Positions 2,249 through 29,378 of a stretch of 64,000 nt of DNA are shown in pieces. A program made the translations under genes and the position numbers. The stretch is from Alcanivorax sp. (GTDB lineage: Bacteria; Pseudomonadota; Gammaproteobacteria; Pseudomonadales; Alcanivoracaceae), in NCBI RefSeq assembly GCF_002733835.1, contig NZ_NVWY01000004.1, positions 1 to 64,000 of the forward strand, in the 5' to 3' direction. Every line of letters starts with the position of its first letter. Position 1 is the first letter of the stretch. Under the pieces are notes generated by a model. The model was not told the origin of the DNA, did no database searches, and saw only the letters and a program-made list of their open reading frames with translations.

Positions 2249-2283
2249 ACGTGTTGCATACGGCGTGTTGCGTGCCGCGTCTT
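2249..2283. repeat. Heptanucleotide-period array, GCGTNNN type
   Basis: Five consecutive 7-nt units in strict register follow the pattern RCRTNNN; the last runs into the TAA stop codon (2282-2284) of the minus-strand TonB/AgmX-like gene. The 19 bases GGCGTGTTGCGTGCCGCGT at 2262-2280 recur identically at 29343-29361, next to the stop codon of an unrelated gene. Confidence 0.7.
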
Positions 2284-3271
2284 AGTTAGGGAAAAAGTTC
2301 AGCTTGTAATCGCCTTTCCAGGTTTCCACATTCATGGCGCCGAAGTTCATTTTTCGGGCCACCAACAGGATTCGCCGTTCAAGCTTGTCGTCACCCAGTT
2401 GGCTGGACTTGATTTTCACGTCCAGCACGTCGCCGCTGGGGGCGATGGTGAGCGCAAGTACCACGGTCCCTTGCAGGGCAGGATTGCTGCGCAATGCGCG
2501 CTGGTACTGGCTGTTGAACTTGCCAGCATAGCGGTCGAATACGCGGCGCAACTGCTCCTGGGTGCGGCGACTTTTGCCATCGCTGCCTTTACGCGAGGTA
2601 CTGGCCACTTCGCCGGCCTGGGCGATCTTGCTGTCCACCTGCTTGCCACCACTGCCGACGGTGCCGGAGGACAATGTGCCACCGCCTCCGCCGCCACTTG
2701 AGGCACGGGCTACGGCAACGCCGCCGGAGCCGCTGCCGGCACGGGTGCCGATCAGGTCACGCTCAGCCTTGGCTGTGGTGTTGCCGCCGGTTCGCAGGCC
2801 GCTGCCAGAGTCCACCAATGGGCCGATATCGTCCAGCCCGGCCAGAGAGTCACCCAGGTCCTCTTCCAGTTTGGCCTGTGCTTTTTCACGGGCCTGCTGG
2901 CGTTCCTGAGGTTCCGGTACCGGTTTGGGCTTGGGCTCGGGTTTCGGCTCAGGCTTGGGCTCCGGTTCAGGCTCCTCTTTTTTGGGTTCTTCCTTTTTCT
3001 CTTCCGGCTCGGGTTCCGGTTCGGGCTCCGGCGGTGGTGGCTCCTTTTTCTTCTCCATGACCAGTTGCGCAAGGCGCTCAGGAATTTTCTGCTGCTCACG
3101 GCGGTCCGGTTTCTCGATGGTTACCGCGTTTACCATGATCATGATCAGCAGGGAGAGAATCAGCAGAACGATAACGATGCCGTAGAGGCGTCGGTCTTCC
3201 CCTTCCTGTTTGTCCCAAGGCAGCGAGCCGTCGATCAGTATGCGCAGCTTGTTATTGTTTTTCTGCGTCAT
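2282..3271 (-). CDS. TonB/AgmX-like energy transducer
   Basis: This 329-aa inner-membrane protein should transmit ExbB/ExbD motor force into the periplasm. It has a short cytoplasmic N-terminus, one membrane segment (about residues 30-50), a long Pro/Glu/Lys periplasmic spacer (about 74-125), a Gly/Ser-rich linker (about 150-210) and a C-terminal domain (about 236-329). That last domain, with IAPSGDVLDVKI, resembles the AgmX/PglI C-terminal domain of Myxococcus gliding proteins more than a classical TonB end. Its start overlaps the upstream exbD stop by 4 nt (ATGA), so translation is coupled. It is the last gene of the cluster. No TonB-dependent receptor is adjacent, which argues against a plain nutrient-uptake role. 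Confidence 0.8.
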   Translation of the reverse strand: MTQKNNNKLRILIDGSLPWDKQEGEDRRLYGIVIVLLILSLLIMIMVNAVTIEKPDRREQQKIPERLAQLVMEKKKEPPPPEPEPEPEPEEKKEEPKKEEPEPEPKPEPKPEPKPKPVPEPQERQQAREKAQAKLEEDLGDSLAGLDDIGPLVDSGSGLRTGGNTTAKAERDLIGTRAGSGSGGVAVARASSGGGGGGTLSSGTVGSGGKQVDSKIAQAGEVASTSRKGSDGKSRRTQEQLRRVFDRYAGKFNSQYQRALRSNPALQGTVVLALTIAPSGDVLDVKIKSSQLGDDKLERRILLVARKMNFGAMNVETWKGDYKLNFFPN

Positions 3272-3768
3272 TCCTCTTCCTCCTCTGCGACTTTCAGCAC
3301 AGCGAAGGCGACTTGTGTGTATGGGGTCTCCATACAGCTACGCATCAACTTCTTGATCACCGAGTAGGGCACCGAGCGGTCGGCAAGAATCATTATTTCC
3401 CGGTCTTCGTCCGGGCTGATTGCCAAGCCCTGTGAAGCGCGGAAATTCAATTCTTCCACTAGCGCCGCCACGGTACGCTCTTCCTGATTCCTTACCGTTT
3501 CGGTATCAGCGATTTTCTGCCCAGCAACAATGATATCCATGGGGCTCACCTGAATGGTCAGCACCTCGGTGGGCAGTTCCTGGGCAATGGATTCCGGTAA
3601 CTGGATATCCTGATTGTCCGGCAGCTTGGCCGCATTGTTGTTATTCACCAGCAGAAAGATCAGCAGGATGGTGAAAATGTCCATCAGGGAGGTCAGGTTC
3701 AACGTGGCTACGGCTTTGTGCTTGCCGTGGTGCCGGGCCATGCGGCGGGCGCGGGATGACTTCTTCAT
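3268..3768 (-). CDS. ExbD/TolR-family motor protein with the conserved Asp
   Basis: This 166-aa protein has a basic cytoplasmic N-terminus, one membrane helix (about residues 27-45) and a periplasmic domain, as in ExbD/TolR. Asp30 in SLMDIFTILL aligns with the protonatable Asp of ExbD. It overlaps both neighbours by 4 nt (3765-3768 upstream, 3268-3271 downstream), so the two exbD genes and the tonB-like gene form one coupled unit. It is expected to form, with ExbB and the other ExbD, a proton-driven inner-membrane complex. Confidence 0.85.
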   Translation of the reverse strand: MKKSSRARRMARHHGKHKAVATLNLTSLMDIFTILLIFLLVNNNNAAKLPDNQDIQLPESIAQELPTEVLTIQVSPMDIIVAGQKIADTETVRNQEERTVAALVEELNFRASQGLAISPDEDREIMILADRSVPYSVIKKLMRSCMETPYTQVAFAVLKVAEEEEE

Positions 3769-4304
3769 GCATCACCTCCCTTGCCGGCGTTGTTGGCGCT
3801 TTGATCCTTGGGCGCTGAACCGATGCTGATGCTCGGGAACAGCTCTTTCTTGATGGTCTGGCCGTTGACCTCGCTGTTGTACAGACGCACAGCGTCCATG
3901 GTCTGGATCATCACCTCATAGGGGGTGTCATCCTCGCACAGCAGGGTAATGGCGGTCTCATTGGGAAACTTCTCTTTTACCTTCACCAGGTAATCGTGCA
4001 AACCGGTGCTGTTGGGTGTCTCGCCATTTTTTTCCACAATTTTGAGCACTGCGCTGGTATTACGGTCGACCACTTCATAGCGGTTGCCGTAAATCAGCAC
4101 TTCAAGCACCAGCTTGTCTTTTTCGTCGTCTTCCGAGGGGGTGCTGCTGTCATTCACGGCGGGCAGGTCGAGTTGCAGGATAGATACCTGCGCGAAGACC
4201 GCGTTGATCAGCAGAAAGGGAATCAGCACTACCATCAAATTCAAAAAGGCAGTGATGTTCAGTTCCACCTCGGTGTCGTGCGAACGTCGTCTGCGAAAAC
4301 GCAT
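3765..4304 (-). CDS. ExbD/TolR-family protein with Asn replacing the motor Asp
   Basis: This 179-aa protein has the usual ExbD layout: an Arg-rich N-terminus, one membrane helix (about 17-37) and a periplasmic domain. Its helix reads NITAFLNLMVVLI where E. coli ExbD has NVTPFIDVMLVLL, so the proton-carrying Asp is Asn22. The codon on the minus strand, at 4239-4241, is AAT. The partner ExbD keeps its Asp. It may therefore be a structural or regulatory subunit of a mixed complex. It starts 40 nt after exbB and ends with a 4-nt overlap into the second exbD. Confidence 0.8.
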   Translation of the reverse strand: MRFRRRRSHDTEVELNITAFLNLMVVLIPFLLINAVFAQVSILQLDLPAVNDSSTPSEDDEKDKLVLEVLIYGNRYEVVDRNTSAVLKIVEKNGETPNSTGLHDYLVKVKEKFPNETAITLLCEDDTPYEVMIQTMDAVRLYNSEVNGQTIKKELFPSISIGSAPKDQSANNAGKGGDA

Positions 4305-4344
4305 ACCAGATCCTTACACCAGGTTAGCGAAAACAAGAATCGGC

Positions 4345-5037
4345 TTATTGGCCGTCGTTCTTGCGCTCTTGCTGGGCAGAAACCTGGCGGAATACGTTAA
4401 CGAATTTCACCGAGGCCATTTCCATGCTGTCGACCAGTTTGCCGGTCATGGAATTGATAAAGGCGAAAGCCAACAGCATGGGGATCGCAGCGATCAGACC
4501 GAACGCCGTGGTGTTCATGGCAACAGAAATGGAGGCAGAAAGCAGGTCAGCTTTCTGGGCCGGGTCTGCGCTGGCGACCGCAGTAAAGGCGCTGATCAGA
4601 CCGAGAATGGTGCCGAGCAGGCCGAGCAGGGTAGCGATGTTCGCGAAGGTGGCGATATAGGGGGTGCGGGTTTCCAGGCGCGGAATGATTTCCATCAGGC
4701 CTTCTTCCATGGCCAGTTCGATGTCATCGTGGCGCTTGGCGGATTTGGCACGCTCAAGACCGTAGCCAATCACCTTGGCCATACCCGTGTTGCTGTTGCT
4801 GACCACGTCCAGCGCCTGGCGGAACTGCCCTTTGGCAATCAGCGGGTAAACATCTTTCCAGGTCTTCTGGTTTTTTGCCTTGGTGGCCTGGAGGTAGATG
4901 ATACGCTCCAGAGACAGGGCCAGGCCCAGTGCCAACACAATCAGAATGGGGTACATGAAAAACCCGCCATCCTGAATAAATTTGATAGACGTCTCAATGA
5001 CACCCAGATTTTGGGCGGCAGCGGCGGTGGTGGGCAT
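4345..5037 (-). CDS. ExbB/TolQ/MotA-family proton channel protein
   Basis: This 230-aa inner-membrane protein has the three-helix ExbB plan. There is an N-terminal helix near residues 27-50, a cytoplasmic loop, and two helices near 125-150 and 170-195; the second begins TFANIATLLGLLGTILGL, typical of the family. It should form the channel ring that drives the two ExbD proteins and the TonB/AgmX-like protein encoded just downstream. GGAG precedes the ATG at a good distance. A 149-nt gap holding a terminator-like hairpin separates it from the TPR genes upstream. Confidence 0.88.
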   Translation of the reverse strand: MPTTAAAAQNLGVIETSIKFIQDGGFFMYPILIVLALGLALSLERIIYLQATKAKNQKTWKDVYPLIAKGQFRQALDVVSNSNTGMAKVIGYGLERAKSAKRHDDIELAMEEGLMEIIPRLETRTPYIATFANIATLLGLLGTILGLISAFTAVASADPAQKADLLSASISVAMNTTAFGLIAAIPMLLAFAFINSMTGKLVDSMEMASVKFVNVFRQVSAQQERKNDGQ

Positions 5038-5143
5038 GAACTTCTCCTGCGATGTTTCTGTTTAGCGTTATTGTTGAGCGCAGCGACGTTTCGGCTGTTG
5101 TGAACGTGCTGACGCCTTTCCCCAAAGTGTTCGTTTTTATCAG

Positions 5144-5165
5144 AAAAAAAGCGTGCAAGCACGCT
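5144..5165 (-). terminator. Terminator or attenuator inside the cluster
   Basis: Read on the minus strand, AGCGTG CTTG CACGCT (5165-5150) forms a 6-bp GC-rich stem followed at once by a run of seven T (5150-5144). It lies between the 95-aa gene and exbB, so it may lower read-through from the TPR genes into the motor genes, or end the upstream unit outright. Confidence 0.6.
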
Positions 5166-5186
5166 AATGCTATTTACCGTGTTTGT

Positions 5187-5474
5187 TTATTCCAGAAACA
5201 GGCCGTCATTGTCCGGTTCCTGGGTCAGCAGCTGGTGGTACTCTATTTCACGCATCAGTACTTCCTGGTCCAGTGGCTCCAGTACCCGGTTGAGCAATGA
5301 TGAGGTGGGATCTTTCTTTTCCAGTTTCACTTCCCGATCTTTCCAGGGCACCACGTTCAGCACGGTAGGAGCTTCCTGGGTGCCGATGACGTTGGTAGAC
5401 GGTTCGCTCGGGTCATCGGCGGCATAGCTGGCAGTGGCCAGCAGCAGTGCAGCAAGGGGCAACAGGCTTCGCAT
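5187..5474 (-). CDS. Small exported protein of unknown function
   Basis: This 95-aa protein has a clear signal peptide (MRSLLPLAALLLATASYA, cleavage likely after residue 18) and a short acidic mature part of about 77 residues. I recognise no domain. Its ATG overlaps the stop of the preceding TPR lipoprotein gene (ATGA at 5474-5471), so the two are translationally coupled, and it precedes the exbB-exbD-exbD-tonB-like genes. A periplasmic accessory role in the same envelope complex is inferred from position alone. Confidence 0.7.
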   Translation of the reverse strand: MRSLLPLAALLLATASYAADDPSEPSTNVIGTQEAPTVLNVVPWKDREVKLEKKDPTSSLLNRVLEPLDQEVLMREIEYHQLLTQEPDNDGLFLE

Positions 5475-6238
5475 CAGTTTATCTCCCCGGGGTTAAGGGT
5501 AGAGCCGTTCTCGGCAACCGGTTGGCTGGGTTGATCCGGCGCACGGCGCTCCAGATCGACAATCCAGTTGGCTACGTTTTCGTCCGGCAGTTTCTGCAGG
5601 TTCTGATAGGCACGGAAATGATTCAGGGCCAGGTTCATGTCCTGCAGGTAGAGCTCACCGAGTACAGCCAGATTGAAATGGGCGCGGGCATATTTGGGGT
5701 CAAGCACCAGCGCGCGCTCATAATGAATGCGCGCGCTATCGAACTCGCCTTGCTCGCGCAGGGCCAGGCCGAGCCCGTTGTGGGCGTAGGGATTGGCATC
5801 ATTGATGGCCAGGGATTGCTCGAAAGCCGCCTGGGCCTTGTCGTAATCCTCCAATTCCATCTGTATCAAGCCAATGTTGAGCTGTGGCCCGGACAGTTGC
5901 GGGTAGCGTTCCGCCAGAGACTGGAACATGACCAGTGCCTGTTGGTTGTTGCCCGCCATGCGGGTTTTCAGGGCACGGGCGTATTCGCCCATGGCCTGTT
6001 GCGCAATTTTCTCGACTTTCGGGTCGTGGGGCACCGGTGGAATATGCACTGCATCGCTGTTGGCAGCAGCGCCGCCACTTTTCTGCTGTTCATATTTGCT
6101 GGTGTTGCCTTCGGCAGTACCGTCCAGCCCGCCGCCGCCCTGGGTGGCACAGCCAGCGAATAGCAGTACCAGCAAGAGAGCCGCGCCGCGTGTTGCGTAT
6201 TGCGTGCTGCGTGCTGCGTTAATAGATAATGTCGACAT
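5474..6238 (-). CDS. TPR lipoprotein
   Basis: This 254-aa protein carries a lipobox (LFAGC, Cys30) and about four to five tetratricopeptide repeats in residues 80-210, with repeated ALxxDPKYARAHFNLA-type helices. It should be anchored in the outer or inner membrane and scaffold protein contacts. I chose the ATG at 6238, which has GAGAG 3 nt upstream; the start at 6265 lacks a ribosome-binding site. The gene then overlaps the end of the 981-aa TPR gene by 20 nt. Residues 6-17 of the signal peptide are encoded by a heptanucleotide repeat array (6188-6222), so the n-region is repeat-derived. Confidence 0.8.
   Translation of the reverse strand: MSTLSINAARSTQYATRGAALLLVLLFAGCATQGGGGLDGTAEGNTSKYEQQKSGGAAANSDAVHIPPVPHDPKVEKIAQQAMGEYARALKTRMAGNNQQALVMFQSLAERYPQLSGPQLNIGLIQMELEDYDKAQAAFEQSLAINDANPYAHNGLGLALREQGEFDSARIHYERALVLDPKYARAHFNLAVLGELYLQDMNLALNHFRAYQNLQKLPDENVANWIVDLERRAPDQPSQPVAENGSTLNPGEIN
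6188..6222. repeat. Heptanucleotide-period array inside coding sequence
   Basis: Five 7-nt units of the form GCGTNNN stand in perfect register. They span the stop codon of the 981-aa TPR gene (6219-6221) and encode part of the signal-peptide n-region of the next gene. The core is the same as in the arrays at 2249 and 29302. Confidence 0.75.
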
Positions 6239-9164
6239 AGCTCTCAACCTGTTCAAACTTCGCATAACGGCCGGGAATCAGCTCTGCTAACGCGGTAAAA
6301 CTCTTTTTTACCCACTGATCATAGATGTCATCGGTGACCAGGTTGGCATTTGCGATAAGAATATCGATGGCCTGATCCTCGTAGGGCAGGGCCTTGTCTT
6401 CAAGCAGCATGGTGTATTCCTCGAGCTCAAGCTCATCCATGCCGTTGGGCCGCTCCGACTTGATCAGATCTCTGGCCAGCACGCGATACATCTCGCCAAT
6501 CTTGTAGTTGGCGGCGGTGGCGTACTCGGCGACGCCGATCTGGGCCACAGCCTGATAATCCGCCAGCGCTTTTTTCATTACTGTGGTTTTTGCAGCCAGC
6601 GAGGTTTTCAGTGGCTGTTCAAGCTTGATGCGGTTGAATTCCTGGAAGTTCGGTTCAGCCAGAGTAAAGCTGGCGTAGGCGGCGAGCCAGGCGACGCGGT
6701 CGTCGGCATTGTTGCCGGCATCACGGTAGCTGGTGACCAGTTGTTTCAACCAGTAGGTTTCGCGCTCGCTGTTGGCGGTTTTGCGGTTCAGTTCCACCAG
6801 CCTGAATTGTGCTTCGGAGCGGAAATCATAAGGTTGTGGCCATTCCTGCAGGTACTGCTCGTAGAGCGCAATCGATGCTTGCGGCTTCTCGGCCCGGTCC
6901 TGCATTTCGGCGGCGCGCCACATGGCCTGGCGGGCCAGTTCATCGTTCTCGCCTTTATGGTTAGCGGCGATCAGGGTCAGCTCACCGGCAGCGGCGGTAT
7001 AGTTGCCTTGCTGTTCGTAGGCCACCGCCAGTTTGTCCGGAATGGTATCGGCCAGCGGGTCGTTCGGGTAACGCTGACGGAAAGATTCGAGGACGGGAAT
7101 GGCATCGGCGCTACGCTGCTGCTGAATGAACAGGGTGGCGGCGTCAAACTCGGCATTCTTGCGTACAGCGGCTTCCGGCACCGCCTGACCAACGCGCAGG
7201 AAGGTGGCGGCGGCCACGTCCAGGTTGCCCTGGTCCCGCTGTTGCTCGCCCTGGCGGTAGATGCTGAGCGCCAGTTTTTCGCGGTATTCAGCGCGTTGTT
7301 CCGGCGGCACTTCCAGTAGCAGAAGCTTGTTGTAGGCCAGTTCGGAAACCTTGAAGCGGCCAAGATCGAATTCGCCGTTGGCAATGGTGGCCCAGCCGTA
7401 GCGAAGCATTTCCGGCGCCGGAGCCGGATCGCGACTGACCAGAATGCCGGCGGTTTTCACTGCACCTTCCACATCACCAAGAGCGAGCTGATCTTCGGCG
7501 GTATCGTGCAACACGTTGGTTGCCTGCGGGTGTTGCGGGAAGTTTTGTCCAAACTTCTGGGCGCTGGCGATTTTCTGTTGGCGCCATTGGGTGGCCTGTT
7601 CCTGCTCGAGCTCGCCATCAAGAATTTTCTGGTAGGCAACCAGCGCGGAGAAGGCGGCGTCGCCACCGGTGGTGTGTTCGGGGTAGCTATAGGCGGTGCG
7701 CTCGAATTCGGTGATCGCCGCCGGGTAGTCGTTGGCGGCGAATAACACATCGGCGTAGCGGTGGTTCACGTCACCCTGATTGGTGCTGACCGGCGGCGTA
7801 TCCAGGAACTCTTTATACCAGCGTGCCGGGGCCTGGTAGTCGGCAGGCTTGCCGGATTTCTGGGCGAGCACATGGTGGTATTCGGCCAGGTCGAGGATAT
7901 GCCCCTTGAGCAGATCCACATATTGCTGGCGGATATCCGGGTGGCGGTTCCAGTACTCGCTGTTCACCCCATAGTGATCGATGAATTTTTCTTTCGCCGG
8001 CAGTACCAGTGTCGGGAACCCCCCTTTCTGGTAAGACTCGATCTGCAGAGTGGAGAACTCCGGGGCCAGGCGGGAATCCGGATAGACCTGAACGAACATG
8101 TCGTAGGTTTCCGCCGCATCGCGGAAACGTTCCTGATTCAGGTAGACGTCACCCAGGGTGCGGTAAATCTCCGGTTCGTAGTCCCGGTTGCCGTTGCGGG
8201 CAAACCAGGCTTTCACTGACTTGGCGCCATTCAGGTTGCTGAAGCTGAGGCTGACAACCCGTTGGGTATCGCCGAACAGCTTGCTTTCCATGCTGGTGTC
8301 ATCAGCCAGTACGGCCTCGCCGTTCAGGTTGTCCAGCAGGGTAAAGAAACTGTTCTGGGCGCGTTCGTATTCGCCCAGTTTGTAGTAGCTCCAGCCGTGC
8401 TTGTACAGCGCCTGGTTATAGAATTCGTTACGCTCGCCCCGTTCGATGACGTCGGCATAGGCTTTTTCTGCGTATTCGTAGTCGCCTTCCGAGAACAGCA
8501 TTTCACCACGCCGGAACTGAGCTTCCAGTGCCCATTCGCTATTGGGGTATTGCTCTACCAGGGAGTCGAGACTGCTGCGGGCCTTGTCCAGGTCTCCATC
8601 CATGGCGTAGGCCTTGGATAGCAGGTAATAGGCTTCGGCGCGTTCGTTGGCGTCGTTGGTGCTGTTCAACAATTCCTGATACAGCTGAATGGCGGTGCTG
8701 TAATCCACATCCTCGTCGGCCAGGGTGGGGGACATGGTACCCGCCAGATCCAGCAGGGCCAGCTTGCGCTCGGTGTCGTCGGTGGTTTTCACCTGGGACA
8801 TGGTGTTGTCGTAGACGAGCTGGTCGACTTTCTGTTCCAGCTGCGCTTCTTCTTGCTGGGCGATCTGCATGTCCTGTTCGGTGGCAGATGCCAGTGCCAG
8901 GTCGGCCATGCGCCGCAGGGTCTTGGCCCGGCGCTGCGGATCATCGAACAGTTCAGCTGCCTGACGGTAGCTGTTCAAGGCATCCTGGGTGGAGGCGCTT
9001 TCCAGTTGCTGCTCTTCAATGACAATGTCTGTGCTTTCCAGGTCCGCCAGGGTGGTTCCCCCGAAACGGGCCTGTTGCTCCAGGGTGCCACTTGGCGGTG
9101 CGGATGCGCAGCCCCCCAGGGCCACCATCGCGGCTGCCAGACTATGCAGGCGAAATCGTTTCAC
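6219..9164 (-). CDS. Large TPR protein, probable lipoprotein
   Basis: This 981-aa protein begins with a short signal sequence and a plausible lipobox (VALGGC, Cys19). It then consists almost wholly of TPR-like helical repeats, with recurrent motifs such as FRRGEMLFSEGDYEYAEKAY (about 218-237). It starts at a GTG whose last two bases are the first two of the upstream stop TGA (GTGA at 9164-9161), so it is coupled to the 638-aa TPR gene. Large TPR lipoproteins next to ExbB/ExbD motors occur in the Agl-Glt gliding system and its relatives. A periplasmic or outer-membrane scaffold role is inferred. Confidence 0.8.
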   Translation of the reverse strand: MKRFRLHSLAAAMVALGGCASAPPSGTLEQQARFGGTTLADLESTDIVIEEQQLESASTQDALNSYRQAAELFDDPQRRAKTLRRMADLALASATEQDMQIAQQEEAQLEQKVDQLVYDNTMSQVKTTDDTERKLALLDLAGTMSPTLADEDVDYSTAIQLYQELLNSTNDANERAEAYYLLSKAYAMDGDLDKARSSLDSLVEQYPNSEWALEAQFRRGEMLFSEGDYEYAEKAYADVIERGERNEFYNQALYKHGWSYYKLGEYERAQNSFFTLLDNLNGEAVLADDTSMESKLFGDTQRVVSLSFSNLNGAKSVKAWFARNGNRDYEPEIYRTLGDVYLNQERFRDAAETYDMFVQVYPDSRLAPEFSTLQIESYQKGGFPTLVLPAKEKFIDHYGVNSEYWNRHPDIRQQYVDLLKGHILDLAEYHHVLAQKSGKPADYQAPARWYKEFLDTPPVSTNQGDVNHRYADVLFAANDYPAAITEFERTAYSYPEHTTGGDAAFSALVAYQKILDGELEQEQATQWRQQKIASAQKFGQNFPQHPQATNVLHDTAEDQLALGDVEGAVKTAGILVSRDPAPAPEMLRYGWATIANGEFDLGRFKVSELAYNKLLLLEVPPEQRAEYREKLALSIYRQGEQQRDQGNLDVAAATFLRVGQAVPEAAVRKNAEFDAATLFIQQQRSADAIPVLESFRQRYPNDPLADTIPDKLAVAYEQQGNYTAAAGELTLIAANHKGENDELARQAMWRAAEMQDRAEKPQASIALYEQYLQEWPQPYDFRSEAQFRLVELNRKTANSERETYWLKQLVTSYRDAGNNADDRVAWLAAYASFTLAEPNFQEFNRIKLEQPLKTSLAAKTTVMKKALADYQAVAQIGVAEYATAANYKIGEMYRVLARDLIKSERPNGMDELELEEYTMLLEDKALPYEDQAIDILIANANLVTDDIYDQWVKKSFTALAELIPGRYAKFEQVESYVDIIY

Positions 9165-11077
9165 GATCCTTTCCTCTGGTTCTTCTCACCGGAGACAGAC
9201 GAGTCTTGCAGGCGGGCAATGGCCAGGTGTGCTTCGGCCAGCTGGTCAGCCAGCTTTTGCTGGTTGGCGTGGAGCAGGGCGAGGGCGTCGGCCTGCATAT
9301 TTTGCTCCAAGGCCAGCAAGGTCTCTTCTGTCAGGTGCTTTATTTGTTTTATTTTCTGGTCTTGTGCGGCGAGGCGCAGGCCTACGTCGTCACGGGTGCG
9401 CAGGGTGGCATCGCGGATTTGCTGGCTTATGGCCGCAATACGCTGCGCCAGCACCTGGCTTTCTTCGCGCAATTGGGTAGCAGCTTGCACTTGTTGCTCG
9501 CGCTGTTCCACCGACTGGTGGGCAATATCCCAAAGTAACAGGCCACGGACCCGGCGCAGGCGAATGGCGTTGTTGTGATCAGAGCCAGGGATGCGACCGA
9601 ATTGGTGGGCGAGGGCATCGACTTTCTTCCACATGATGGCCTGTTCAGCATTGGCCACATCGGCGGGGTTTTCCAGATCCACATAGTTGGGGATACGGTT
9701 GGCCAGTTTGTCGCTGGCCTGGCTGAGCGTTTCCTGGCGGCTCATCAAGCCGGTGACCTGACCACGGACATGGGGCAGGTTGCGGTTCAGTGTGTCGCGT
9801 TGTTGTTGGTAGCTTTGCTGCAGGGCGGGAAGGGCGTCCTGCCAATGCTCCACCATGGATTTGATCTGTTGAATTTGCCGGTAGTGCTCAAAGCGCTGGG
9901 CAAAATGATTGCTGGAAAACAGCTTGTATAAATACGACAGCTCGCCGCCTTTTGCCATGTCGCTGGTATTGGCGGGGAGTAATCCGGCCGCGTTTTCGTC
10001 TTCAGGCAGCAAGGCTTCGGACCAGCCAGGTTTGGCGATGTTATCGATGGCGCGCTGAATGTCCTTAAGGGCCTCGCGGTATTGGGTGGCTGCATACTGA
10101 TAGCCCGACAGCGCTTGGGGCAGGCCGCCGAGCTCTTCATAGGCGCGGGGTGCCAGCATCAACGCTTCCTGCACGGAGGGATGGCTGCTGTTACGGTGCA
10201 CGGCTTCCAGCCACAGGGGCAGGGCCCGTTTTACGTCGCCGGCGCGGTAGTTCGCCAGGCCAAGCGCGAGCAGGGCGTCTTCGGAGAATGGGCCGTCGCT
10301 GCGTACCTGGCGCAGGGCGGCGCGGGCATTCTCCAGGTTGCCGCCTTTCAATTCTGTCAGGCCTGATGCCAGTGCAGCCCGGTCGCGCAGTGCCAGAGCC
10401 TGATTGCTGCTGCCGCCGGCGGACAGCAAGGATTTAAGCAACTCGAGGCCTTGATCCTGGTGGCCGGCCCGGATCAGCGCTACCCCCATGTTGTAGCTGG
10501 CGTAACGGCCTTCGTCAGTGTTCAGGGGAACGGAGTGAAGATAATCCAGGGCACCGGTGAAGTCGCCTTCAGCCATGAGGATATTGGCCAGCATCAGGCG
10601 GCGACGGGCTTCATCGGCCGGTTCCAGGCCTTGCATATTGTCGCCATCGAGAATCATGGCGGCGTCGGTGTAGTTGCCTTCGCGGTAGTGCAGGGCGGCT
10701 TTGTGTAACCAGGTCTGGGCGCGAGTGCGGCTGCGAATATCCTTTGCCAGCAGCCGGTTGAAGATTACCTCGGCTTTGCCTGGTAGCCCGTAGGTAACAT
10801 AGAGGTCACCAAGGACCAGTTCGGCGTAATCGGTATCTTCATTGAAAAGTTGCTGCTGTTGGTTGGTCAGCAGCAGGTTAATGGCGTCGAAGCTGGCTTC
10901 GCGGTAGTAGTCATACATGACTTCTCCAAACGCCAGATAACGGTGCTCTTCTTCGCCAAGGACCTGTGGGCCAGTGTCAATCTCATCGAAGAACTCAACC
11001 TTGGCGGCCTGGGCCGGAGTCAGGTTGATAGCTAACAGCGAACACAACAGCCACCGTTGCATGCGGGGTCGTGTCAT
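9161..11077 (-). CDS. Exported TPR protein
   Basis: This 638-aa protein has a signal peptide (about residues 1-24, ending in AQA), TPR-type repeats over roughly residues 50-320 and a helical, probably coiled-coil C-terminus (about 380-620, rich in Gln, Glu and Leu). I chose the ATG at 11077 because it overlaps the stop of the 172-aa gene (ATGA); a GTG at 11089 is the alternative. It is the second gene of the envelope cluster. TPR and coiled-coil segments suggest a periplasmic scaffold. No enzymatic motif is visible. Confidence 0.8.
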   Translation of the reverse strand: MTRPRMQRWLLCSLLAINLTPAQAAKVEFFDEIDTGPQVLGEEEHRYLAFGEVMYDYYREASFDAINLLLTNQQQQLFNEDTDYAELVLGDLYVTYGLPGKAEVIFNRLLAKDIRSRTRAQTWLHKAALHYREGNYTDAAMILDGDNMQGLEPADEARRRLMLANILMAEGDFTGALDYLHSVPLNTDEGRYASYNMGVALIRAGHQDQGLELLKSLLSAGGSSNQALALRDRAALASGLTELKGGNLENARAALRQVRSDGPFSEDALLALGLANYRAGDVKRALPLWLEAVHRNSSHPSVQEALMLAPRAYEELGGLPQALSGYQYAATQYREALKDIQRAIDNIAKPGWSEALLPEDENAAGLLPANTSDMAKGGELSYLYKLFSSNHFAQRFEHYRQIQQIKSMVEHWQDALPALQQSYQQQRDTLNRNLPHVRGQVTGLMSRQETLSQASDKLANRIPNYVDLENPADVANAEQAIMWKKVDALAHQFGRIPGSDHNNAIRLRRVRGLLLWDIAHQSVEQREQQVQAATQLREESQVLAQRIAAISQQIRDATLRTRDDVGLRLAAQDQKIKQIKHLTEETLLALEQNMQADALALLHANQQKLADQLAEAHLAIARLQDSSVSGEKNQRKGS

Positions 11078-11592
11078 TGCTGATTCCACTCACGGAATTG
11101 GAATTTGTGCTGTTGGTTATTCAGGTCATCGACCATTTGCATTTCCACCATTTTGCGGCCGGGGCCCTTGGTGAAGCTGTAACTGGTGGTTTTCTGGTAA
11201 TCCTTGCCGAGGGGGTCGTAGCCGGTAATGGTGGCTTCCATGACGTGGCGACCGCTGGTCAGGTTGCCGGTATACAAGCGCTGGATGCCGCCCTTGGTGA
11301 GCGCCTCGAATTCCTGGTCGGAATAAAAGTGGTAACCAACATGGTCACCGTCGATGGTCAGGTTGATGTCCACCAGTCGAATCGGCGTGCCCACGTCGAC
11401 GGAGACAAATATGCTGGTCTGGGGGCTGGCGTAGAGCAGCTCCTGTTCCAGCAGGGTGAGATCCCGGTTCAGGTTGAGGGCTTCGCTCTTGAGTTGGCGA
11501 ATCTGCTCGGACAGACCATCGTCGTCAGCCGCACCGGCAATGGAACACAGGCTCACTAACACGGCGCCGCAGAAGGGCAAAAATGCTTTCAT
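11074..11592 (-). CDS. Exported protein of unknown function, first gene of the TPR-ExbBD cluster
   Basis: This 172-aa protein has a signal peptide (about residues 1-21), a short heptad-like helical segment (about 25-52) and a beta-rich remainder with regular hydrophobic alternation (FVSVDVGTPIRLVDINLTI). I recognise no family with certainty. It heads the nine-gene minus-strand cluster, is coupled to the next gene by a 4-nt overlap, and faces a divergent gene across a 150-nt gap that must hold the cluster promoter. Confidence 0.7.
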   Translation of the reverse strand: MKAFLPFCGAVLVSLCSIAGAADDDGLSEQIRQLKSEALNLNRDLTLLEQELLYASPQTSIFVSVDVGTPIRLVDINLTIDGDHVGYHFYSDQEFEALTKGGIQRLYTGNLTSGRHVMEATITGYDPLGKDYQKTTSYSFTKGPGRKMVEMQMVDDLNNQQHKFQFREWNQQ

Positions 11593-29301: not shown

Positions 29302-29378
29302 ACGCAACAGGGCTCACGCAACAAGCAACACGCCGGGAGTTTGGCGTGTTGCGTGCCGCGTGAAGCCTGTGGCGTTTC
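29302..29378. repeat. Heptanucleotide-period inverted pair (GCGTNNN type)
   Basis: Left-arm heptamers (29302-29334) and right-arm heptamers (29344-29378) form a 20-bp imperfect stem (29315-29334 with 29343-29362, 17 of 20 paired) around an 8-nt loop. The right arm ends 5 nt before the stop codon of the minus-strand MpaB-type gene. Its 29343-29361 stretch is identical to 2262-2280. Confidence 0.75.

Follow-up and report, generated by a model that had tools for sequence, protein, structure and literature searches.

What does an ExbB/ExbD-type proton motor do when it is part of neither a Ton nor a Tol system? The question is raised by nine minus-strand open reading frames (ORFs), P1 to P9 (11592..2282), in a 64,000-nucleotide stretch of DNA from Alcanivorax sp. 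(NZ_NVWY01000004.1, positions 1 to 64,000; hereafter the window), which represents contig C8 of a genome assembly of 3.6 Mb and 64 contigs. P1–P5 are followed by ExbB (P6), two ExbD proteins (P7, or ExbD-a, and P8, or ExbD-b) and a GltG-like transducer (P9). As judged from sequence, the operon belongs by motor, transducer and cluster composition to the core complex of Luciano et al. 2011 (gltC, gltD, gltE and gltG with aglR, aglQ and aglS; PMC3169522; this and the other papers are cited from excerpts), the function of which was given as unknown. A first-pass annotation, made from the letters of the window, had called the operon an uncharacterised, proton-driven machine of Agl/Glt type. The AgmX/PglI match of the transducer and the family matches of the motor proteins bear out the kinship and the proton drive; a function is indeed unassigned, but the novelty was overstated. 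The operon itself is not new, because the same core complex was described in Gammaproteobacteria in 2011 and was taken up in 2013 as a standalone complex, perhaps a basal transport machinery (PMC3858216). What the present analysis adds is a partner: a link, well supported, between the motor complex and a gene cluster for outer-membrane proteins that are predicted to carry electrons, marked by a short form of DUF3570. For a complex that has been without a known task since 2011, a class-wide and statistically strong outer-membrane partner makes that task testable.

The partner is apparent in the surroundings of the transducer genes. In a class-wide sample of 369 genomes, 85 carry a match over the cut-off of the AgmX/PglI model, and surroundings were fetched for 80 of the 102 such matches; six further loci (L018 and L023–L027) bring the neighbourhood set to 86. 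The most frequent neighbour families, named from Pfam, are a TlpA-like redoxin (20 loci), ApbE (16), an SH3/barrel protein (14), DUF3570 (14) and a small barrel (13), mostly upstream and on the same strand; antisense ORFs inside the operon also cluster. The order of genes is an HZS_alpha-domain protein with CXXCH motifs, the SH3/barrel protein, the barrel, TlpA, DUF4266, DUF3570 and then P1 to P9. To avoid selection by the motor, DUF3570 itself was sought throughout the class. It comes in two forms with few in between: a long form of at least 168 bits, and a short form that scores no more than 154 bits and starts at profile position 90 or beyond. A mechanical rule for the short form, which demands a score under 160 bits, a start no earlier than profile position 90 and, within 2 kb, no match that scores higher or starts earlier, returns 60 loci in 58 genomes, which with 37 genomes holding the long form only make 95 genomes with DUF3570; weak matches starting before position 90 (G063:C65, G184:C44 and G295:C88) fall outside both forms.

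Genomes with short DUF3570 are, almost without exception, genomes with the complex. AgmX exceeds its cut-off in 55 of the 58, compared with 30 of the 311 others, and P1 is present in 56 of the 58 as against 29 of 311. The exceptions are G079 and G163, which have neither AgmX nor P1 and which the rule adds to an earlier hand-drawn list of 58 loci in 56 genomes, and G214, which has P1 and no AgmX match over the cut-off. Long DUF3570 alone goes with P1 in 14 of 37 genomes, versus 71 of 332 others. Counted by eye, about 30 family-level groups are represented among the genomes with the short form. This near restriction of short DUF3570 to genomes with the complex is new as far as our searches show, as is the Asp/Asn asymmetry of the ExbD pair described below. 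The association is also physical: on the hand-drawn list short DUF3570 lies within 2.5 kb of P1 at 30 of 58 loci and within 16 kb at 43, and among 34 fetched loci having both (19 of them chosen for their short-form DUF3570) it is the immediate upstream neighbour of P1, in the same orientation, in 26. ApbE, DUF3570, Tat or LamG genes are nearby in 26 of 60 fetched P1 loci, and in none of 20 loci without P1.

What kind of structure do these partners form? Outer-membrane barrels usually end in Tyr, Phe or Trp. Counting distinct sequences only, all 40 short DUF3570 proteins end in Tyr or Phe, and Tyr, Phe or Trp closes 39 of 39 small barrels and 32 of 33 SH3/barrel proteins. The DUF3570 model (four sequences; mean predicted local distance difference test score, pLDDT, 69) is a barrel of 16 long strands and the one confident model of five (68.9 versus 43.8 or less); among the best 50 Foldseek matches listed, the foremost are outer-membrane barrels (PelB/C, OmpG, FadL and AlgE among them), with query TM-scores of 0.30–0.50. 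Short DUF3570 is predicted to be an outer-membrane barrel. Its companions show motifs as well: DUF4266 has a C-terminal CXC in 35 of 35 sequences, 25 of 26 HZS-like proteins hold two or three CXXCH, and the LamG proteins contain two (8 of 15), one (4) or none (3). A similar grouping of DUF3570, CXC-ended DUF4266, a thioredoxin-like protein and ApbE was reported by Meheust et al. 2021 (PMC8238504). The main text of that paper, in the excerpts used here, mentions neither ExbB nor TPR proteins, whereas here the cluster is joined to a proton motor and to HZS_alpha and LamG lipoproteins with haem motifs; moreover, short DUF3570 mostly lacks the strict [S/T]GA[S/T] motif of the ApbE/DUF3570 systems described there. 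In the open-licence literature (narrow searches, and the first 20 of 2,386 results of a broad one) no paper was found that ties the DUF3570/redox cluster to an ExbB/ExbD motor.

The most informative clue to function comes from a second locus in the same genome, on contig C9, which lay outside the view of the first-pass annotation, confined as that was to the window. Its minus strand encodes an 878-residue HZS_alpha lipoprotein, an SH3/barrel protein, a barrel, TlpA, DUF4266 and short DUF3570 (PF12094, 99.9 bits; the putative flavin site reads SAAS); its plus strand encodes PSD2-like (below the Pfam cut-off), LamG, Tat-signal and ApbE proteins. After ApbE, again on the minus strand, lie copies of the first two genes of the operon, P1′ (165 residues) and P2′ (641 residues). 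The fetched stretch of C9 (12000–44500) contains no motor genes. Within the genus, P2 (at least 68% identity) is accompanied by one to three P2′ (23–27%) in 16 of 17 genomes; the remaining one, G015 (one contig, 3.1 Mb), has neither P2 nor P2′ and no short DUF3570, which 15 of the 17 possess and which is missing also from G004.

Such loci occur elsewhere in the class. Surroundings were obtained for 20 places of short DUF3570 outside the AgmX operon loci already fetched, and in 19 of them P1 accompanies short DUF3570 (L142 is without P1). One of the 19 has motor genes (L132) and one is cut by a contig end (L125); in the stretches fetched for the remaining 17 motor genes are absent, and all 17 genomes hold an AgmX match over the cut-off elsewhere. 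The arrangement is plainest in G083 (10 contigs), where the sole P1 match lies with the redox cluster and P1–P5 without a motor (L138), and the sole AgmX match belongs to a bare motor on another contig (L109). G220, of the same family, is split in like manner (L111 and L137), although there the motor is close to the end of its contig. Since the C9 assembly and P1′–P2′ stand on a contig stretch devoid of motor genes, we infer that they use the motor of the window in trans. In Myxococcus a single AglRQS motor drives both the Glt (gliding) and the Nfs (spore-coat) systems (PMC3858216), and M. xanthus GltC binds the outer-membrane barrels GltA and GltB encoded beside gltC (PMC4488436); the split, shared-motor layout parallels both. 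The two small barrels beside P1–P2 recall, by position, GltA and GltB beside GltC.

These observations lead us to favour, with somewhat better than even confidence, a shared envelope motor whose action on an outer-membrane redox assembly would be relayed by exchangeable adaptors in the periplasm. Proton flow would move the ExbB ring against an unequal pair of ExbDs, and the GltG-like transducer would hand the resulting force to P3 and P4, the putative counterparts of GltD and GltE. P1 together with P2, the latter GltC-like, may form the adaptor on the outer-membrane side. This adaptor would exist in interchangeable versions, one of them dedicated to a redox assembly comprising the short DUF3570 barrel, two small barrels, haem-motif lipoproteins, a LamG lipoprotein, TlpA, DUF4266 and ApbE. 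The C9 assembly, equipped with P1′–P2′, would borrow the window motor in trans, much as AglRQS serves Glt and Nfs. The motor most likely serves there to assemble, move or gate redox complexes at the cell surface by force. A bolder extension, which we put forward tentatively and would not ourselves wager on, is that the class shares a trans-envelope machine of about 20 genes, in which one asymmetric proton motor drives a flavin/haem redox assembly in the outer membrane by way of exchangeable P1–P2 adaptors. It would be an extracellular redox machine powered mechanically, and we know of no precedent for such a machine. The data raise the question of whether a proton motor acts on surface redox proteins, and they suggest that exchange of P1–P2 adaptors is the way in which this motor family changes its job.

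Several facts weigh against the shared motor. The co-occurrence statistic for short DUF3570 (Fisher p about 1e-40) ignores shared ancestry. Thirty-four of the 60 fetched P1 loci have no ApbE, DUF3570, Tat or LamG gene within about 20 kb, and 30 of the 85 AgmX genomes are without short DUF3570 by the mechanical rule. G004 keeps P2 and P2′ in the absence of short DUF3570, which speaks against a strict bond. The strict flavin motif [S/T]GA[S/T] is found at the first site of only 7 of 40 short DUF3570s (Ser or Ala replaces Gly in 29, and 4 have no site by pattern); because it is mostly absent, attachment of flavin to short DUF3570 is uncertain, despite the presence of ApbE. Finally, the P1 of the window lies outside the clade (support 96/87) that, in a tree of 86 rows, unites all 49 redox-linked P1 rows with one TlpA-only row.

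This last point sustains the strongest rival, to which we give roughly one part of our belief to several against: that the redox link is real elsewhere, while the window operon serves an unrelated target through its own P1–P2, with P1′–P2′ working on another motor or on none. The genes beside the operon, which by eye encode alcohol dehydrogenase-, thioesterase-, kinase- and PdxB-like proteins, are likewise not those of the redox cluster. Against it, the genome has a single AgmX match over the cut-off, its other four ExbBs looking Tol-like, Ton-like or small; both loci are kept in 16 of 17 genus genomes, the one without P2 having neither; and G083 is split as described. Nor is the tree firm. 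A topology in which the four-row group of the window joins the redox-linked clade scores slightly better and is not rejected (approximately unbiased, AU, test, p 0.56), and a quick P2 tree places the window P2 beside P2′ (Shimodaira–Hasegawa-like approximate likelihood-ratio support 88). The outcome of the AU test led us to abandon the flat claim that the window P1 is a lineage apart from those linked to redox genes. The P1–P2 of the window may serve the same redox assembly or another target.

Less probable again, in our estimate, is a machine for surface motility (gliding) or surface adhesion. Its appeal lies in the core parts, which are those of M. xanthus Agl/Glt: an ExbB with two adjoining ExbDs as the motor, a GltG-type transducer, TPR proteins, a putative GltC-type adaptor and a motor that may, as in M. 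xanthus, be shared. P2 (642 residues) may be set beside GltC (673 residues; PMC3169522, Table 1) by size, domains and export, and P2, P3 and P4 fit GltC, GltD and GltE in domains, sizes and order, as putative counterparts. P4 matches the GltE model NF033758 with an E-value of 9.4e-10, below the cut-off and fourth-best among many TPR families. Only positions 344–626 of 650 of the GltG model NF033760 align with P9 (52.3 bits against a cut-off of 650); the full equivalog cut-off is missed because the N-terminal FHA part is absent from P9, in which Pfam and NCBIfam models found no FHA domain. The GltJ model matches P9 over the transmembrane helix and charged spacer only. A Fibrobacter cluster that resembles the operon in composition (OmpA, TPR, TPR, ExbB, ExbD, ExbD, TonB; within FSU_2396-2403) is largely found at higher abundance when cellulose is the substrate, and one of its TPR proteins, FSU_2397, has been reported to form a complex with cellulases (PMC6851124). 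Against gliding, Luciano et al. argued that the core alone is insufficient for it (PMC3169522). Of the Group A proteins and CglB of the gliding machine, the search covered GltJ and CglB; nothing in the genome matches the model of CglB, although it has no match in any control either. The outer-membrane partners proposed here are DUF3570 and haem-motif lipoproteins, not GltA/B/H and CglB.

The comparison with the published core complex also sets out what differs. Wherever the core complex occurs outside the deltaproteobacteria, as it does in Gammaproteobacteria, its genes are clustered in one region, and the gammaproteobacterial version includes one extra gene absent from Myxococcales (PMC3169522). 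Two candidates for that gene exist here, P1 and P5, and both are conserved within nine genes. The redox-cluster link, P2–P3 fusions, motor-less copies of P1–P2 and the Asp/Asn ExbD pair do not appear in the excerpts of that paper.

An envelope-integrity system like Tol-Pal is very improbable. The layout of a homologous ExbB/ExbD-type proton motor and a transducer is common to Tol-Pal, Ton and this operon; the nearest solved relatives of ExbB are TolQ and both ExbDs score best with TolR models among NCBIfam, the solved chains closest to the ExbD-b profile being ExbDs. The genome, however, has its own TolQ, TolA and YbgF over cut-off on contig C33, and the motor proteins of the operon stay under the TolQ, TolR, ExbB and ExbD equivalog cut-offs (TolQ 67 bits of 221; TolR 35 and 25 of 127). 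Two unlike ExbDs, an AgmX-type C terminus, the lack of a receptor and, in most transducers, of a transmembrane His further separate the operon from Tol-Pal and Ton. Least credible of all is a nutrient-uptake Ton system energising TonB-dependent receptors: P9 does pass the tonB_Cterm model TIGR01352 (31.7 bits, cut-off 27.1), but it scores far higher with AgmX/PglI (NF033768, 59.3 bits, cut-off 40) and falls under PF03544 TonB_C (19 bits, cut-off 24.6), a classical TonB (68.4 bits) lies on contig C21, none of the 16 TonB-receptor barrels found across the genome is on C8, and no neighbour family present in at least four loci looks receptor-like (one representative each, by eye). A His at the transmembrane helix is a mark of TonB and TolA (PMC12204202), and 136 of 149 distinct transducers have none in or near it. 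The operon is neither a Ton nor a Tol system. The first-pass annotation was therefore right in assigning the C-terminal domain to the AgmX/PglI type and in seeing no adjoining receptor; it had proposed that a classical TonB C terminus always travelling with a receptor would make this a nutrient-uptake system, and neither is found. The excerpts of a paper on TonB in Teredinibacter (PMC10734418) hold nothing on this complex.

The two ExbDs differ at the residue that carries the proton. Distinct homologues, copies linked to type VI secretion included, were aligned with TolR: ExbD-a has Asn at this position in 151 of 153, Asp in one (L108) and a gap in one fragment, and ExbD-b has the Asp in 153 of 153. 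In the window the motifs are directly visible, as Asn in AFLNLMV (ExbD-a) and Asp in SLMDIFT (ExbD-b). The first-pass annotation had recognised two ExbDs and passed over this difference. The proton site of M. xanthus AglQ is essential (PMC9120999). The counts suggest that pairing an Asp-bearing with an Asn-bearing ExbD is the rule for motors of this group, which bears on motor mechanism.

All nine genes are present where the first reading had placed them, with the parts it named, as ORF coordinates and Pfam and NCBIfam matches confirm. P1 (11074..11592, minus strand, as are all nine), the first gene of the complex and paired with P2, encodes a 172-residue exported protein with a predicted helix (25–53) and eight beta strands (model pLDDT 84); it has no Pfam match at E≤1 and no NCBIfam match above a cut-off, its model matches no PDB fold at E≤1e-3, and its sequence finds in the PDB two designed proteins only (E>0.5). 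P2 (9161..11089), an exported TPR/coiled-coil protein, is fused to P3 in some relatives. P3 (6219..9164) is a 981-residue TPR lipoprotein, the GltD counterpart by size and domains, and P4 (5474..6265) a TPR lipoprotein of 263 residues, or 254 from an inner start. P5 (5187..5474; 95 residues, exported) matches no Pfam or NCBIfam family over cut-off; its relatives have a GNRELPKVLYIVPWK-like stretch in common, and in position and size it is reminiscent of M. xanthus GltF (89 residues; PMC3169522, Table 1). ExbB (4345..5037) is an AglR-like proton channel of the ExbB/TolQ/MotA family (MotA_ExbB, 93 bits), ExbD-a (3765..4304) and ExbD-b (3268..3768) give ExbD matches of 56 and 50 bits, and P9 (2282..3271) consists of one N-terminal transmembrane helix, a Pro/Glu/Lys-rich spacer and the AgmX/PglI domain. 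TPRs occur in P2, P3 and P4; lipoboxes (P3, P4) and signal-peptide-like starts (P1, P2, P5) were recognised by eye. The statement that nearly all genes are joined by 4-nucleotide overlaps was too strong, this being true of three of the eight junctions as called. P1 and P2 overlap by 16 nucleotides, or by 4, making a fourth such junction, if the inner ATG at 11077 is the start; then follow, in order, overlaps of 4, 47 (20 with the 254-residue start) and 1, gaps of 149 and 40, and, at the last two junctions, 4-nucleotide overlaps once more.

Across the class a single order is conserved for the nine genes, the small genes P1 and P5 among them, an observation that is new as far as our searches show. 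Over the 80 fetched AgmX loci the motor quartet is complete in 77 and all nine genes are present in 54, counts that are lowered by contig ends and by genes the profiles miss. These include P2–P3 fusions, counted as both genes, which occur in seven loci from three family-level groups (1387–1535 residues). Because the order is kept across the class, the operon is not a chance grouping. Over the 369 genomes P1 and AgmX occur together in 80, P1 alone in five (one of them, G141, a marginal match), AgmX alone in five and neither in 279. Among named records, in a search from which records close to this genome were possibly left out, the best match with all nine genes together is Alcanivorax limicola (L143), the P8 of which is 48% identical.

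Departures from the usual arrangement were also seen. AgmX transducers of a second, larger size class, with about 446–477 residues as against 310–350, are present in eleven loci (L049, L067, L073, L076, L081, L087, L091, L094, L099, L106 and L112), the P1 proteins of which form one clade without a redox cluster nearby. In the named loci L183, L204, L214 and L221, P1 is found downstream of P8 rather than first, and P2 and P3 have unusual lengths. In some loci the ExbB-ExbD-ExbD-AgmX quartet, without P1–P5, lies downstream of type VI secretion genes (L041, L045, L053, L060, L066 and L075; named, L154, L196 and L210 from Colwellia, L156 from Marinagarivorans, and L201, which seems to be the same contig as L060). 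Pfam matches at L060 comprise VasE, DotU, IcmF, TagF_N, PP2C and a kinase. It is possible that these quartets are a proton-motor addition to a type VI secretion system. A phosphoribulokinase-like gene, named by eye, lies upstream on the same strand in L062, L072, L089, L092, L096, L100, L107 and L115.

The window also contains CACGCAACACGC-like repeats, with seven matches when one mismatch is allowed against 0.8 expected. They are located at 2263–2274, just 3′ of the operon, at 6188–6213, inside the start of P4, and at 29315–29355; those within P4 encode the stretch that precedes the lipobox.

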